Shown piece after piece: positions 2,374-20,347 of a stretch of 64,000 bases of DNA. Source of the DNA: a virus. The number at the start of each line of letters is the position of its first letter. The first letter of the stretch is position 1. The notes under the pieces were generated by a model. The model searched no databases. It worked only from the letters and a program-made list of their open reading frames with translations, and had not been told where the DNA came from. Position numbers and translations under genes: made by a program. The stretch covers positions 1-64,000 of IMG/VR virus record IMGVR_UViG_3300049893_000773; one strand, given 5' to 3'.

Positions 2374-3396
2374 ATGGCCTCACAGAGAGAAATCATCGAA
2401 TTCATCGAAAATGCATTTGGTACGGGTACGCTTTCAAATGGCGGCTTGAACATCTCTGTTGTATGCCCTATCTGTGCGGAACGTCAAGATAATCTCCAAA
2501 AGAGGAAGCTGGTTATCCGCACGGATGACTTCTTGACCCATTGCTGGGTGTGTGGGTATCGGTCCACCAATCTCGTAAATCTACTTTCGGCCTACCATCC
2601 AGCCCTCCTCCCGGAGTACAAGAAGAAGTTTCGGATCAAAGCCCGAGAGCGCAAGCTTTGCAACTTCACCGAAACAATCAAATTGCTGGCGGAAGGTAAG
2701 GAGCCGGTCAAGAAGGAACTGAATCCGGCTCTCACTCTCCCGGCTGGATTCAAGATGCTCGCCCTGGATCTGAAGCCAAAAGACGGAATTACTCGTCGGG
2801 CACTTCAATACCTCTTCAAGCGTGGGTTGACCGAGGCAGACCTGTGGCGTTGGAAGATCGGAATTGCCACAACTCCACCCGGAGAAGGGGAACAGGACTT
2901 CCGGTACAGGGTCATCGTCCCTTCCTTTGATTCCATGGGGAAGCTCAACTTCTTTGTGGGTCGAGCCTTCCTCCCAGGATGGAAGGGACCACCCTACTCC
3001 AATCCACCCTTGAAGCGGGAGGAACTTGTCTTCAATGAATTGAACATCGACTGGACCAAGGAGCTCACCCTGGTTGAAGGTGTCTTTGACATGATCAAGG
3101 CCAATGACAACACCACCTGCATCCTGGGATCATCCTTTGATTCCTCCTATAAGCTCTTCCAGGAGATCGTACGCCATCAGACCCCCGTACTCCTTGCTCT
3201 CGATCCAGATGCCAAGGGAAAGGCGCTGAAAGCCGCCAAAGCCCTCCTGGAGTACGGAGTCACCGTCAGGTTCCTGGAGCTACCCCCAGGGATCAAAGAC
3301 GTGGGCGAATTGAAGAAGGGGGAGTTTAACACCTATTCGGAACGTGCGAAGCTCATGACGATGGAAGACTTCTTCCAGATGAAGTTGAGGGAATGA
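2374..3396 (+). CDS. DNA primase (DnaG/T4 gp61-like, zinc finger plus TOPRIM)
   Basis: 340 residues. The N terminus has a zinc-finger pattern CPIC (about 31-34) and HCWVC (about 57-61), as in CHC2-type primases. The second half has TOPRIM features: LTLVEGVFDMIKA with the catalytic Glu, LLALDPDAKGKALKAAK with the D-x-D pair, and a closing KDVGEL. It should synthesise RNA primers for lagging-strand replication. The size fits T4 gp61 (about 340 residues) and there is no helicase domain. The ATG follows RuvC closely without a clear Shine-Dalgarno, so translational coupling is likely. Confidence 0.85.
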   Translation: MASQREIIEFIENAFGTGTLSNGGLNISVVCPICAERQDNLQKRKLVIRTDDFLTHCWVCGYRSTNLVNLLSAYHPALLPEYKKKFRIKARERKLCNFTETIKLLAEGKEPVKKELNPALTLPAGFKMLALDLKPKDGITRRALQYLFKRGLTEADLWRWKIGIATTPPGEGEQDFRYRVIVPSFDSMGKLNFFVGRAFLPGWKGPPYSNPPLKREELVFNELNIDWTKELTLVEGVFDMIKANDNTTCILGSSFDSSYKLFQEIVRHQTPVLLALDPDAKGKALKAAKALLEYGVTVRFLELPPGIKDVGELKKGEFNTYSERAKLMTMEDFFQMKLRE

Positions 3397-3399
3397 GCA

Positions 3400-3636
3400 A
3401 TGTCAAAGTGGCATAAACGTGTGATTATCCAGGGAAAACTTGGTGAGTTGTCGAAGGTGGAGGAAGAGCTGGAAGAGGCTTTTGACGCTGAGGAGCGAGG
3501 ACAAACGCTTATGCTCCTATTCGAGCTTTCCGACATCATTGGTGCTTGCGGTCTTGTTGCGGCCAAGTACGGCTTGTCGCTGGATGACCTTGTGAAGTTC
3601 TCCAAGCTCAGAAGCGAGGTGGCGAAAAATGGTTGA
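3400..3636 (+). CDS. MazG-like all-alpha NTP pyrophosphatase
   Basis: A 78-residue all-helical protein. ELSKVEEELEEAF gives the E-x-x-E metal-binding pair and LFELSDIIGA gives the second E...D pair of the MazG/HisE nucleotide pyrophosphohydrolase fold, followed by YGLSLDDL, which is common in this family. It is shorter than a full MazG domain (about 100 residues) but keeps the core helices. It would hydrolyse a nucleoside triphosphate to the monophosphate; the substrate cannot be read from sequence. Its stop overlaps the start of the next gene by 8 nt, so the two are co-translated. Confidence 0.65.
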   Translation: MSKWHKRVIIQGKLGELSKVEEELEEAFDAEERGQTLMLLFELSDIIGACGLVAAKYGLSLDDLVKFSKLRSEVAKNG

Positions 3637-4312
3637 CCTGGACCAGTACGTGCGAAACGGCGTCTTCTTCCCGGATCACAAGCTCTCCATGCTTGAAGCG
3701 GACCTCTTCAGGGACATGGAAACGGTCTTGTGTTTCCGGGGTTTTCAATACCTTTCCGTCCCCTCGGTGGTCACCAAGGAGACCTACGAGCGGCAAGGGA
3801 CGATCCCCTGGGAGAAGGTATTCAAGATTGGAGAGGATCATGCTCTGGCCGGTTCCGCAGAACAGGGAATCCTTGAGATGTTCACCGGGAAAACGGTGGA
3901 TCGACTCAGTAAGTTTTACGCCAAGAATCAGTGTTTCAGGAATGAGAACAAGCCCTACGAGGGGTTGAAGCGTCTTCGCGAGTTCTTGAAGATGGAGCAG
4001 TTCCTCTTTGTCCCGGAGGATAGAGCCGAGGAGTTCATGGAGGAATCCATGGGGATCGTTACTGGCTTCCTACAACGTCATCACATCAAATACCGCATTG
4101 TCGATATGACCGAAAAGGACGAGGGCTACCACCTGGAGAAGAAGGACGTTGAGGTTTACACCAAGTCCTATGGCTGGCTGGAGACACACTCCTGTTCCTA
4201 CTTTGGTCATGAGCAGACAAAGCGCTTTGGCATTGACGGTGGAATGACCACGATCAGTAACACCGCAATCGCCTCTCCTCGAATCCTGGTCCCTTTCCTT
4301 GAGCGCGGATAA
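3629..4312 (+). CDS. Stand-alone seryl-tRNA-synthetase-like catalytic core
   Basis: The 227 residues line up with the class II SerRS core. LAGSAEQG (about 73-80) stands for the TxE serine-binding loop. CFRNEN...GLKRLREFLKMEQF (102-125) is motif 2. VPEDRAEEFMEE and YRIVDM match the SerRS beta sheet. ETHSCSYFGHEQTKRFGI matches the family's EISSCSN..D.QARR region. NTAIASPRILVPFLE (211-225) is motif 3 with its Arg. The N-terminal tRNA-binding coiled coil is absent and motif 1 is weak. It may aminoacylate a non-tRNA acceptor, as known amino acid:carrier-protein ligases do, or be a regulator. The overlap with the MazG-like gene points to joint expression. Confidence 0.75.
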   Translation: MVDLDQYVRNGVFFPDHKLSMLEADLFRDMETVLCFRGFQYLSVPSVVTKETYERQGTIPWEKVFKIGEDHALAGSAEQGILEMFTGKTVDRLSKFYAKNQCFRNENKPYEGLKRLREFLKMEQFLFVPEDRAEEFMEESMGIVTGFLQRHHIKYRIVDMTEKDEGYHLEKKDVEVYTKSYGWLETHSCSYFGHEQTKRFGIDGGMTTISNTAIASPRILVPFLERG

Positions 4313-4360: not shown

Positions 4361-7300
4361 ATGAAAATTGCTCACATTTCCGACATTCACTGGATGGGAC
4401 TCTCGCGACACGAGGAGTACACTCGGGCTTTCACAATCCTGTTCTCCAAGCTTCGTGAGATCCGACCCGATGCAATCTTCCTGGGGGGAGATTACTTCCA
4501 CACCAAGACTTCTGGCATCTCCCCCGAGGTGATCGACCGTCTTGCCTGGATGTTCAAGTCCTTTGGGGATATTGCTCCGACGCATGCTATCCTTGGCAAC
4601 CACGATGGTAACCTCGCCAACGAAAGCAGGGAAGATGCCATTTCGCCTATTGTGAAGGCGATGGACTACGACAGGGTAAAACTCTACAAGGGTTCCACCG
4701 AAGTGGACATTGGAGACTTCAACTCAGCCGAGGTTTGCCTTTGCGTGTTCTCTTGCTTCGATAAATCCGGCTGGAACGAGGTTTGCCCGGTTGAAGGGGC
4801 TATCAACATCGCTGCATTCCATGGCTCCGTTGGTGGATCGACCATGGACAATGGCTGGATCATGCCGGATGCCAAGGCAGAGGTCCAACTCTCGATGTTC
4901 GATGGTTACGACTTCGTACTCCTGGGAGACATTCACAAGCGTCAGTTCCTTGCCGAGAGACGGGACAAGAATGGGGTGATGAAGCCTTACGCAGCCTATC
5001 CCGGCTCCTTGATTCAGCAGAATCATGGGGAGGATGAGGTCAAGGGTTTCCTTTTGTGGGATATTCGGGCAAAAGATGACTGGGACGTTGAGTTCATCGA
5101 AATTCCCAACTCCCAACCATTCTTGACGATCCCATGGATGGGGTCCGCTCAAGAGACCGCCGATGCCGTTTCGGCTGTTCGAGGCAAGATCCTCCCAGGC
5201 TCTCGGTTCAGGGTGGATTCGGTTGCTCCCTTGCTTTCCGCCGAACAGCGTCAGGTGGAACAACTCTTGCTCCAGGCATTCAAGGCCGAGTCGGTGTGCT
5301 TCCAATCGAAGCTCAAGAACCGTTATGACTCAGTGACCACCGGAGAAACAACGGTTAAGAAGTCGTCCCTGCGGAACAGTCCCGACGTGATGCGTGCGCT
5401 CTACGCTCAATTCCTTAATGGGAATGTCAAGAAGTTCCCGCTTTCTCCAGAGCAAGTTGAGCTTGGGAACGCTTTGATTGACAAGTTCATGGTCAAGGCA
5501 AAGGACACCGAGAAGGAGACCGTCCGTGATGTTTCATGGAGCCTGAAGAGCATCGAGTTCGACAACCTGTATCGGTATGGCCCAGGCAACAAGTTGAATC
5601 TTGAGGTCCTTGATGGCGTGGTTGGCGTATTCGGCAAGAACAAGACAGGCAAGAGCAGCCTTGTGGGTGCCCTCCTCTACACCCTTTTCAATGGCTCGGA
5701 TCGAGATGGGATTACACGCAACGGCCACATTATGAATCAGTCCAAGAACCACTGCCAAGCGAAGGCTGTGATCAGTGTTGACGGGACGGATTACGTGATT
5801 GAACGCAGTTCTGCCCGTACAGAGCTTCCAAAGAAGGGAAAGAAGTCCGGGGAGCAATTCGACCCAGAGAAGACGGAAACCAAGCTGTCTTTCTACCGCC
5901 TTACACCGTCTGGAAGGGTGGAACTGAATGGCATCAACCGAGAGGACACCGACAAGGCTATCAGGAGGCTGCTGGGGAGCCCAGATGACTTCCTGGCCAC
6001 CTCCGTGGCAACCCAAAGACGCATGGAATCCTTCATTGATGAAGGACCGACGGCAAGAAAGACGATCCTCAATCGCTTTCTGGACCTGGAGGTCTTTGAG
6101 ACGCTTCATTCCTATGCAAAAGAGGAAACAGCGTCCTTGACAGCAAAGATGGCGGCTCTCCCTCTGATGGACCAAGAGGAGGGTGAGGCGTTGAATGACA
6201 AAATTGCCGAGCTTGAGAAGGACATCTCAAACATCGACAACGACCTCGTTGAATTTCGAGCTTTGGACGCTCAACAGCAAGGTTGGTTGGCGAAGAATGA
6301 CACCCTTCACATCAACCGGAACCTGAACGCCCTTCGGGAGGAACTCGCCCAGAAGAAGCAACTCTTGAGCAAGTACAAGGTCCAGCGGGTCACGTTTGCC
6401 CAGAATGTGGCAGCTATGAAGGAGAATATCGCTGCTTTCTCGGCCAAGATCGAGCGCACCAATCCAGCGGAATTCACGGATGGCGTCAAGAGGTTGGCCG
6501 AGTTGACAGCCAAGTTCAACACGACTGACGGCTTGGTTCGTGAGGTGTCCGATCGCCTTCAGAACCAGGAAAAGAACGTGCGGAAGCTGTCCTTGGTTCC
6601 GTGCGGGGACAGCTTTCCTGAGTGCCGGTACATCAAGGATGCCCATGAAGACAAGAAGATCCTGGGCAACACACAGCAAAAGCTGGCCGAACTCTCTTCT
6701 GTCCTCAAGGAATTGACGGAAGCCGTGAAGGCAGAGAAGGAGCAGCGTTTTGCTGAGAAGCTTTTGCAGTACAACGAGGCAAAGTCGAAGCTTCAACTCC
6801 TTGAGGCCAATCTCAAGACCGAGGAAGCCAAACTTCAATCTCTGGACAACCTGGAGGTTGTAGCAGCGGAAGCCGTGGCCCGTTTGATCCCCCAGGTGGA
6901 AGAGCTTGAGGCGGAACTCAACACCTACAACCTGGAAGCCATCAAGGAAATGGAACGCAAGTGCCGAGAGTTGAAGGATAAGCTAGCCTTCATGGAGCGG
7001 CAGAAGGGAGCCAACGTTGCCCTGCTTGCCAAGCTCCAGGTTCGTCAAGAAATGATGGAAAAGGCCGCTGTTGATCGAGAGGCTCTTGCGAAGGAATTGA
7101 AGGTTCTGGAGTCTGTCCAGGCTGCTTTTCACCGAAATGGCATCCCGGCAATTGTCCTGAAGACTCAACTCCCTGCGATCAATCAGGAAATTGACCAACT
7201 CCTTGGAGGGTTGGTGGACTTCCGCATCATCTTCGAGACGGAACCCGGCTCCAACTCCCTTGACATCCTGATTGAGGATGGTCATTCCAAGAGGCCATTG

Positions 7301-7579
7301 GAGCTTGGTTCTGGCATGGAAAAGATGATCGCTTCCATTGCGATCAGGGTTGCCCTGGTCAACCTCTCCAACCTGCCCAAGGCCGACATCTTCATTATCG
7401 ACGAGGGCTTCAATGCCCTGGATGAGGAGCACGTTGGCAAGTGCCTGGAGCTTCTCCAGGGACTCAAGCAGCACTTCAAGACCATCCTGGTGATCTCTCA
7501 CATGCAGCGGGTTAAAGAGGCATCTGATTCGATCATCGAGGTGGTTTCGACAGGTATGGATTCAAGGATTGAGGCGTAA
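4361..7579 (+). CDS. Fused Mre11-Rad50 (T4 gp47-gp46) recombination nuclease
   Basis: One 1072-residue chain. Residues 1 to about 370 are an Mre11/SbcD phosphoesterase: HISDIH (motif I), FLGGDYFH (II), ILGNHD (III), AFHGS (IV), LLGDIH (V). From about 385 it is Rad50/SbcC: Walker A FGKNKTGKSS (about 423), long coiled coils, a hook-like CGDSFPEC near 745 where a CxxC zinc hook is usual, signature LELGSGMEKM, Walker B IFIIDEGFNALD (about 1007) and a distal ISHMQR. In T4 these are two proteins that process DNA ends and promote recombination-dependent replication and host DNA breakdown. The junction is continuous, with no internal stop. Confidence 0.9.
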   Translation: MKIAHISDIHWMGLSRHEEYTRAFTILFSKLREIRPDAIFLGGDYFHTKTSGISPEVIDRLAWMFKSFGDIAPTHAILGNHDGNLANESREDAISPIVKAMDYDRVKLYKGSTEVDIGDFNSAEVCLCVFSCFDKSGWNEVCPVEGAINIAAFHGSVGGSTMDNGWIMPDAKAEVQLSMFDGYDFVLLGDIHKRQFLAERRDKNGVMKPYAAYPGSLIQQNHGEDEVKGFLLWDIRAKDDWDVEFIEIPNSQPFLTIPWMGSAQETADAVSAVRGKILPGSRFRVDSVAPLLSAEQRQVEQLLLQAFKAESVCFQSKLKNRYDSVTTGETTVKKSSLRNSPDVMRALYAQFLNGNVKKFPLSPEQVELGNALIDKFMVKAKDTEKETVRDVSWSLKSIEFDNLYRYGPGNKLNLEVLDGVVGVFGKNKTGKSSLVGALLYTLFNGSDRDGITRNGHIMNQSKNHCQAKAVISVDGTDYVIERSSARTELPKKGKKSGEQFDPEKTETKLSFYRLTPSGRVELNGINREDTDKAIRRLLGSPDDFLATSVATQRRMESFIDEGPTARKTILNRFLDLEVFETLHSYAKEETASLTAKMAALPLMDQEEGEALNDKIAELEKDISNIDNDLVEFRALDAQQQGWLAKNDTLHINRNLNALREELAQKKQLLSKYKVQRVTFAQNVAAMKENIAAFSAKIERTNPAEFTDGVKRLAELTAKFNTTDGLVREVSDRLQNQEKNVRKLSLVPCGDSFPECRYIKDAHEDKKILGNTQQKLAELSSVLKELTEAVKAEKEQRFAEKLLQYNEAKSKLQLLEANLKTEEAKLQSLDNLEVVAAEAVARLIPQVEELEAELNTYNLEAIKEMERKCRELKDKLAFMERQKGANVALLAKLQVRQEMMEKAAVDREALAKELKVLESVQAAFHRNGIPAIVLKTQLPAINQEIDQLLGGLVDFRIIFETEPGSNSLDILIEDGHSKRPLELGSGMEKMIASIAIRVALVNLSNLPKADIFIIDEGFNALDEEHVGKCLELLQGLKQHFKTILVISHMQRVKEASDSIIEVVSTGMDSRIEA

Positions 7580-14153: not shown

Positions 14154-14226
14154 GGGGCCATAGCTCAGTTGGGAGAGCGCGACAATGGCATTGTCGAGGT
14201 CGTCGGTTCGAACCCGACTGGCTCCA
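14154..14226 (+). tRNA. tRNA-Ala (GGC)
   Basis: A clean cloverleaf. The acceptor is GGGGCCA/TGGCTCC with one G-U. The D arm contains TAGCTCAGTTGGGAGAGC. The anticodon stem CGACA/TGTCG encloses loop ATGGCAT, giving anticodon GGC. The T arm is GTCGG-TTCGAAC-CCGAC. The 3' CCA is not encoded. It would read GCC/GCU alanine codons. Confidence 0.93.
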
Positions 14227-14233
14227 CTTCAAA

Positions 14234-18610: not shown

Positions 18611-20347
18611 TCACTCTTCATCCCCACTCATTGGGGCATCCTTCTCGTTGATGATCACACTATCGCACGTGAGCATCAGTCCGACAACCGACGAGGCGTG
18701 TTCAAGGGCACAACGAGTCACTTTCACAGGATCAATGATCCCAGAGGCAACCAAGTTCTGGAACTTACCCGTGGCGGCATTGTAGCCATAGTGAAACTTA
18801 TCCAACCCTGGGAGGAGGTCGAGCTGGAAATTAGTAAGTTCCCCGCCAAACTGGTCGTGATGGGAAATCGCCGCCTCAAGCTGGTTCATGACGACTTCCG
18901 CCGACTTGCCAGTATTTGACACGATCGTGTACAGGGGAGCCTTGCAAGCGTTCAGGATGACTTCCATTCCGGCTCGCAGGTCCGAATAGACACCATCCGT
19001 TAGCAAGTTCTTTTCTGCCAACTTGGCGGCATAGAAGAGAGCGCAACCACCACCAGGGACAATACCTTCCTTGACAGCGGCAATTGTGGCATTGTGGGCG
19101 TCTTCCACACGGTCCTTGCGCTCAAGGATCTCCGTTTCCGTAGAACCGCCAACCTTGACCACAGCAACGCCACCAGCAAGCTTTGCAAGGCGCTTGCGGT
19201 AACGATCAATGCGTAGGTCGTCCAAGGTGCCGTCCTGGGCTAGAGCGGCTCTGAGCATCTTCACACGCTCTTCCACGGCGCTCTTCAGTTCAGGATCAGG
19301 AGCACCAACGATCGTGGTCGAAGTCCTGGAGACTACAACCTTGGCTGCAACCCCAAGGTGATCAAGGTCCAGGTTCTTGAGTTGAACAGGGCTGGAAGCG
19401 TCCAGAACTGTTCCGCCGACCACGCAGGCAATGTCACCAAGGATATCCGTCCTGTTGTCTCCATAGGAGGGGGCCTTGACAGCGCAGCACAGCAGGTTTC
19501 CCTTGAGTCGGTTGACGATCAACGTCTGGAGGGCCGGTCCCTCCACGTCATCAGCAATGATCAAGAGGGAACGATCAGCGTTGGCGATCTTCTCCAGAAT
19601 CGGGAAAAGCTCGTCCAGAGACGAAATCTTTCGATTCGTGGCAAGAATCAGCGGGTTCTCAAGCTCAACCGTGTTCTTTTCTGGGTTGGTCACAAAGTAC
19701 GGGGACAGATAGCCGCCGTCGAATTGCAGACCCTCCACAACTTCCAAGATCGTAGAAGTGGACTTTCCGGGCTCAACAGTAATGATCCCGTCCTCCCCAA
19801 CCTTCTCAATGGCCTCTGCCAGGAGTTCGCCAATGTTAGTATCGCCATTGGCCGAGATGGTCCCAACGTTGATGATATCGTTCTTGGACTGCACAGGGGT
19901 GGCAATCCCCTTGAGAACCTTGAGAACCTCTTCAGTTGCTTGATCCATGCCCTTTTTGACATAGATCGAGTTACGACCAGAGGAAACCATCTTGATTCCC
20001 TCTTTGAGCATGGCATGAGCCAAAACCGTAGCTGTCGTGGTTCCATCACCAGCAATATCATTTGTCTTGCTGGCAACTTCCTTGATAAGCTCGGCTCCCA
20101 TGGAAGGAAGGCGATCCTTCAGGTTAATAGCCCTTGCAACCGTCACACCGTCCTTGGTGATCAGTGGAGCCCCAATTGTCGAGTCGATCGTCACGTTGTG
20201 ACCAGATGGACCCATGGTTGAGGCAACTGCCTTTGCAAGGATGCTGGCACCCTCATAGAGTTGCTTCCTGGCTTCATCACCAAAAACTACCTTCTGGTGA
20301 ACCCCTTGTGTTGCTGCCAAAAGTGCTTGTTGCGTTACCTTGTTCAC
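18611..20347 (-). CDS. groEL: Phage-encoded GroEL chaperonin
   Basis: 578 residues. Group I chaperonin landmarks run in order: ASTMGPSGHNV (nucleotide loop, TLGPKGRNV in E. coli), ITKDGVTVAR, ASKTNDIAGDGTTTATVLA with Asp101 (equivalent to Asp87), apical-domain EGLQFDGGYLSPYF, KDRVEDAHNAT with the ATP-hydrolysis Asp, and VPGGG. The C-terminal GGM repeats are missing. The start codon is GTG with AGGAG ten bases upstream. It folds proteins inside a double-ring cavity, presumably phage structural or replication proteins. No GroES-like gene is seen here, so it may use host GroES or work without it, as proposed for phage EL chaperonin. Confidence 0.95.
   Translation of the reverse strand: MNKVTQQALLAATQGVHQKVVFGDEARKQLYEGASILAKAVASTMGPSGHNVTIDSTIGAPLITKDGVTVARAINLKDRLPSMGAELIKEVASKTNDIAGDGTTTATVLAHAMLKEGIKMVSSGRNSIYVKKGMDQATEEVLKVLKGIATPVQSKNDIINVGTISANGDTNIGELLAEAIEKVGEDGIITVEPGKSTSTILEVVEGLQFDGGYLSPYFVTNPEKNTVELENPLILATNRKISSLDELFPILEKIANADRSLLIIADDVEGPALQTLIVNRLKGNLLCCAVKAPSYGDNRTDILGDIACVVGGTVLDASSPVQLKNLDLDHLGVAAKVVVSRTSTTIVGAPDPELKSAVEERVKMLRAALAQDGTLDDLRIDRYRKRLAKLAGGVAVVKVGGSTETEILERKDRVEDAHNATIAAVKEGIVPGGGCALFYAAKLAEKNLLTDGVYSDLRAGMEVILNACKAPLYTIVSNTGKSAEVVMNQLEAAISHHDQFGGELTNFQLDLLPGLDKFHYGYNAATGKFQNLVASGIIDPVKVTRCALEHASSVVGLMLTCDSVIINEKDAPMSGDEE

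Follow-up and report, generated by a model that had tools for sequence, protein, structure and literature searches.

A gene for an armless catalytic core resembling seryl-tRNA synthetase (SerRS) and a small MazG-like gene form a conserved pair in hundreds of large phages. The association is new here, and no description of the core–MazG pair was found in the open-access literature. The pair studied lies in a 64,000-nucleotide stretch of DNA (the window), part of an 87,662-bp IMG/VR virus record that is itself a fragment. Tentatively, and as a possibility somewhat short of probable, we read the pair as a two-enzyme phage pathway or complex, in which seryl-adenylate would be made and its serine passed on to an acceptor of nucleotide type that the MazG partner handles.

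Linkage of the core and MazG-like genes across phages

A first search with the partner alone gave 14 loci, 13 of which have the core nearby. Wider searches brought 66 IMG/VR loci with the MazG-like protein as query and a further 77 with the core. Of the 66, 62–63 have the core nearby (one of the 63 depends on a short ORF in antisense), and of the 77, 75 have the MazG-like gene; the loci are not all independent (near-copies occur, and 100 cores are left at 85% identity). The paired genes are nearly all on the same strand and less than 1.5 kb apart. In INPHARED, the partner was matched in 273 records and the core in 272, in two lists counted separately, with near-identical host counts. The MazG-like gene comes first at most loci, and the core is first in 21/63 and 9/75; because the order varies, the linkage is not merely the shared descent of one arrangement. 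At three loci, the core and MazG are fused in one protein, namely gp131 of the Microcystis phage Ma-LMM01 and two proteins from contigs filed under Woesearchaeota genomes. This near-obligate linkage, together with the fusions, suggests one pathway, and the coupling to a MazG-like gene, as originally predicted, is far stronger than one overlap shows. Neighbor clustering gave no universal third partner beyond the core and the MazG-like gene, and such a partner was rejected.

We found two subfamilies of cores: A, with ~220–230 aa (the window, phage G, BpSp, and LR745208), and B, with ~180–200 aa, which is the commoner form. One scan of bacterial genomes returned no match; the other returned seven, all in metagenome-assembled genomes and possibly on viral contigs. 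In the huge phage LR745208.1 (locus L008, ~6000–6590), a frame change near the 5′ end divides the core gene, reflecting either real decay or an assembly error.

Sequence, fold, and conserved sites of the two proteins

The core gene (3629–4312, plus strand, ATG start) encodes a 227-aa class II protein of phrog_4806, subfamily A. It matches Pfam tRNA-synt_2b above the Pfam cut-off (E 1.6e-13), the serS model TIGR00414 (E 4.6e-16) over positions 186–399 of 418, corresponding to the catalytic half, and Thermus thermophilus SerRS 1ser (E 1.4e-11); given these three values, the homology to SerRS is not due to chance. The TIGR00414 score, 58.8 bits, is well below the 301.65-bit equivalog cut-off for a full SerRS. 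The protein begins at the catalytic core and the N-terminal coiled-coil tRNA-binding arm is absent, and a profile search of the window's IMG/VR record found no PF02403, the SerRS arm domain. An AlphaFold2 model built from a 50-sequence family alignment shows a confident SerRS fold, with a pLDDT of 95.5 and a pTM of 0.90. Rows from annotated phage records were left out of the alignments used for structure prediction, and all models are monomers. Foldseek against the PDB returned SerRS structures for the core model. The top match is 1wle, a complex with seryl-adenylate (E 4e-19, TMq 0.90), and among the others is 9qof, an E. coli SerRS mutant deleted for the arm and solved together with an analogue of seryl-adenylate. 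The original prediction of an armless 227-aa SerRS-like core is borne out by this ORF, its motifs, and its profile and sequence matches, and the comparison of a predicted structure with SerRS, which it had suggested as a check, gave the same answer. Many phage and GenBank records name members of phrog_4806 'histidyl tRNA synthetase' or 'seryl-tRNA synthetase'; their closest structures are SerRS.

Class II motifs 1, 2, and 3 are present in the core, as judged by Pfam, fold, and residues, and the ORF holds motif 2 (CFRNEN...REFLKMEQ), motif 3 (TISNTAIASPRIL), the GSAEQ loop, and ETHSCS. Residues were mapped onto T. thermophilus SerRS numbering through a phmmer alignment; the mapped positions bind serine and ATP in SerRS. 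The equivalents of E227, R256, F275, K277, E279, E345, S348, T380, and R386 are identical in the core, and the only checked serine/ATP positions that differ are T225 and N378, both replaced by Ser. The GSAEQ loop (3851–3865), with S76, E78, and Q79, corresponds to the serine-binding loop T225-A-E227. Motif 2 (3932–3997) provides C102, R104 (R256), F119 (F275), K121 (K277), and E123 (E279), and 14 residues separate R104 from F119, against 11–14 in the family and 18 in T. thermophilus SerRS. ETHS (E185–S188, 4181–4192), equivalent to E345–S348, is clear in subfamily A and ambiguously aligned in subfamily B (ExGS). Motif 3 (4262–4282) runs from T212 (T380) to R218 (R386); all four of these features are on the plus strand. 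Among 120 non-identical cores, S76, E78, Q79, C102, F119, K121, E123, E175, and T212 are invariant (120/120), while R104 and R218 are each kept in 119/120. Sequence and fold together argue strongly that the core would bind serine and ATP to make seryl-adenylate and PPi, and that the parts binding tRNA-Ser have been lost. Its probable specificity for serine rests on the conserved residues, among which Ser replaces N378 in the window, and the ETHSC hairpin is missing from subfamily B.

The partner gene (3400–3636, plus strand) encodes a predicted minimal MazG/HisE-like NTP pyrophosphohydrolase of 78 aa belonging to phrog_6408 (1e-20). As had been noted from the sequence, it overlaps the core gene by 8 nt (3629–3636, plus strand), and gp012 and gp011 of BpSp overlap likewise by 8 nt. 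Its matches to PF01503 (E 0.014, 16.2 bits against a cut-off of 21.3) and PF12643 (E 0.079) are both under the cut-offs. The AlphaFold2 model has a pLDDT of 93.0 and, against the PDB, is matched by HisE (1yvw and 2a7w) first and then by MazG, all weakly (best E 0.13); by fold and profile, HisE comes closest. The MazG metal motif EExxE...ExxD (3463–3534, plus strand) comprises E22, E23, and E26 followed by E42xxD45; in 118 non-identical partners, E42 and D45 are invariant (118/118), as are the first three glutamates in all ungapped sequences (117/117, one row being gapped). An N-terminal histidine, His5, is also conserved. The partner would be an active metal-dependent pyrophosphohydrolase that releases the monophosphate from an NTP or, in the manner of HisE, from a substituted NTP. 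With near-invariant catalytic residues in both proteins, core and partner look like active enzymes.

Genomic context and possible acceptors of a seryl group

In the window, the pair stands between a DNA primase-like gene (phrog_47, Toprim; 2374–3396, plus strand) and an SbcD–SbcC-like fused nuclease encoded by one 1072-aa ORF (4361–7579, plus strand). A TnsA-like endonuclease domain lies near the pair at 1316–1819 (E 6.1e-18), and a 578-aa ORF on the minus strand (18614–20347) has, by eye, the look of a GroEL-type chaperonin. In other phages, the pair often occurs in nucleotide-metabolism clusters, beside genes for ribonucleotide reductase (RNR), thymidylate synthase, DHFR, and dNMP kinase. 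RNR and dNMP kinase recur near the pair, with many such loci being near-copies. The pair is flanked by DHFR and thymidylate synthase in Morganella phage MP1 and is close to RNR and dNMP kinase in XM05 and RXM, and an anaerobic RNR follows it shortly in ESCO9 and Bas60. In Caulobacter and Brevundimonas phages, lysis genes adjoin the pair, not nucleotide genes. At loci L019–L022, a radical SAM gene lies between the MazG-like and core genes (L020:4233-5024, L021:4236-5033, and L019:4285-5063, the last with its frame split into two ORFs). At ~9 loci, the partner carries a fused HxH...H (HDH...H-type) domain, or such a domain is encoded between or beside the pair genes (fused at L044, L106, L116, L123, L153, and L175; a separate gene at L111), and some members of this domain weakly match phage cysteine dioxygenases (phrog_4786). 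A few loci, e.g., L049, L056, L108, L121, L135, and L140, also have NADAR-like and ADP-ribosylglycohydrolase-like genes, named by eye, close to the pair.

The first acceptor to be weighed is tRNA. ARAGORN found only a tRNA-Ala(GGC) in the window (14154–14227) and none in the remainder of the record, so that no tRNA-Ser was found by this search in either part, in line with the original prediction for the window; a search with the Rfam tRNA model yielded one further match in the record. Among other pair-bearing phages, a tRNA search of BpSp found no tRNA gene, Ma-LMM01 has tRNA-Tyr only, Phab24 has tRNA-Arg only, and RXM is given tRNA-Trp only in the accessible text of its description (PMC8953757). 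The same text names the RXM core a SerRS charging tRNA-Ser and reports no test of this (PMC8953757). A phage tRNA-Ser was accordingly disfavored as a substrate, the pair-bearing phages having no tRNA found or other isotypes only, and its charging by the core is unlikely, as is also indicated by the full SerRS that Kikimora encodes in addition to the pair. The core might instead serylate a host tRNA, or an RNA resembling tRNA, with the arm provided in trans. Its SerRS homology would suit such an activity, as would the YqeY-like gene after the core in Justusliebigvirus, although YqeY occurs in 2 loci only. Moreover, the armless Drosophila SerRS2alpha charges tRNA when its partner (SLIMP) supplies the arm (PMC10817482), a precedent that also counts against the two-enzyme pathway. 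Against a tRNA-directed enzyme stand the shorter motif 2 loop and the lack of tRNA-Ser in pair-bearing phages. In addition, PF02403 above the cut-off is missing from 12 of 13 pair-bearing records, the exception being Kikimora, which encodes a full-length SerRS with a coiled-coil arm (L006:7413-8714) and has the pair elsewhere in its genome. That the phage itself provides an arm in trans was rejected on this ground, though the host may supply one; overall, we consider a tRNA-directed enzyme very unlikely.

Alternatively, the core may ligate serine to a protein of the host or phage, or to another macromolecule, much as EpmA acts on EF-P, and the MazG partner may be supporting or regulatory. An intact activation site without the tRNA-binding arm agrees with this, EpmA is weakly matched by 2/50 family members, and the short motif 2 loop of the core presumably resembles that of EpmA. 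This reading is nevertheless unlikely: it leaves unexplained why the core should be linked near-obligately, and at times fused, to a pyrophosphohydrolase whose catalytic residues are invariant, and none of the 13 records (the window's record, which is a fragment, and 12 pair-bearing phages) has the phosphopantetheine carrier domain PF00550, which rejects a carrier-protein acceptor as far as phage-encoded carriers are concerned. The pair could also be a regulated pyrophosphohydrolase, with the core as an amino acid/ATP sensor subunit controlling the MazG-like enzyme in the way that the HisRS-like HisZ controls HisG. The nearness of the partner to HisE, the fusions and overlap expected of a complex, and the frequent nucleotide-metabolism context are all in keeping with a sensor, but the motif 2 Arg, the motif 3 Arg, and the serine-hydroxyl residues, needless for one, are kept in 119–120 of 120 cores. 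HisZ is matched by just 1/50 members (E 0.032), and no HisG was noticed on reading the annotated neighborhoods. We regard a sensor subunit as quite improbable, and the toxin-like modulator or non-catalytic sensor raised in the original prediction is disfavored by the near-invariant catalytic residues and by how widely the pair is conserved among large phages. Finally, MazG might make a dNMP that the core aminoacylates and a kinase returns to the dNTP pool, a scheme that works like MazZ/PurZ of the Z-genome phages. RNR, thymidylate synthase, and dNMP kinase genes adjoining the pair speak for such DNA-precursor modification, whereas the pair lies away from nucleotide genes in other phages. Coliphage Bas60 (PaulScherrer) carries the pair, and its group is reported as exceptionally restriction-sensitive in the BASEL paper (PMC8594841); for these two reasons, the pair is unlikely to give rise to a protective modification of DNA across the genome, and DNA-precursor modification as a whole seems to us highly improbable.

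A nucleotide-type acceptor, as in the two-enzyme pathway, is the reading that we prefer, with the frequent nucleotide-metabolism setting and the accessory domains counting for it and the location beside lysis genes in Caulobacter and Brevundimonas phages counting against it. After formation of seryl-AMP, the seryl group would move to a nucleotide-type acceptor that the partner makes or trims, yielding an amino acid–nucleotide product, which a radical SAM enzyme or a cysteine dioxygenase-type, cupin-like domain may tailor in some lineages. The earlier proposal of an aminoacyl-AMP former with a special acceptor therefore stands in part: the core is apparently intact, aminoacyl-AMP is expected from sequence and model, and a non-tRNA acceptor is probable, but the suggested kinship with carrier-protein ligases does not hold. 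Somewhat doubtful is the wider claim that a tRNA-independent seryl-adenylate former and a dedicated HisE/MazG-type pyrophosphohydrolase constitute a widespread, undescribed phage pathway making an amino acid–nucleotide conjugate for infection. If true, phages would be activating amino acids for a new purpose other than translation, and a new class of nucleotide products may come to light. In hundreds of large phages, laboratory-tractable coliphages included, one protein of the pair bears a tRNA synthetase label and the other is annotated without a function, and Bas60, which infects E. coli K-12, puts the pair within direct experimental reach.

Comparison with known systems

Amino acid:carrier-protein ligases derive from archaeal zinc-type SerRS. 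The phage core shares with them a SerRS-derived, amino acid-adenylating character; however, it matches canonical SerRS (serS is matched by 22/50 family members, the archaeal-type serS_MJ by 1/50 with E 0.06), and no carrier protein was seen, both of which count against the proposed relation. EpmA, GluQ-RS (YadB), and other cores with non-standard acceptors offer a model for the phage core and differ in their synthetase origin; we know of no pyrophosphohydrolase partner for them. The carrier-protein ligases are SerRS paralogues according to PMC2922099, which cites Mocibob et al. (2010).

The HisZ–HisG/HisE system of histidine biosynthesis likewise has a HisE-type enzyme and a protein resembling class II synthetases within one pathway, but the phage core is SerRS-like and keeps its catalytic residues, and no HisG was noticed nearby. 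With the all-alpha HisE/MazG NTP pyrophosphohydrolases, the partner shares the EExxE...ExxD motif and, as its model suggests, possibly the three-helix core, HisE being the closest solved structure, if weakly so; it differs in having only 78 aa, in scoring under the Pfam cut-offs, in its conserved N-terminal His5, and in nearly always adjoining a SerRS-like core. Compared with canonical SerRS (SerS; TIGR00414), the core has the same class II fold, motifs 1–3, and checked serine/ATP residues, whereas it lacks the coiled-coil arm, has a shorter motif 2 loop, is identical to solved SerRS structures at about a quarter of positions, scores far under the equivalog cut-off, and has a near-obligate MazG-like partner.
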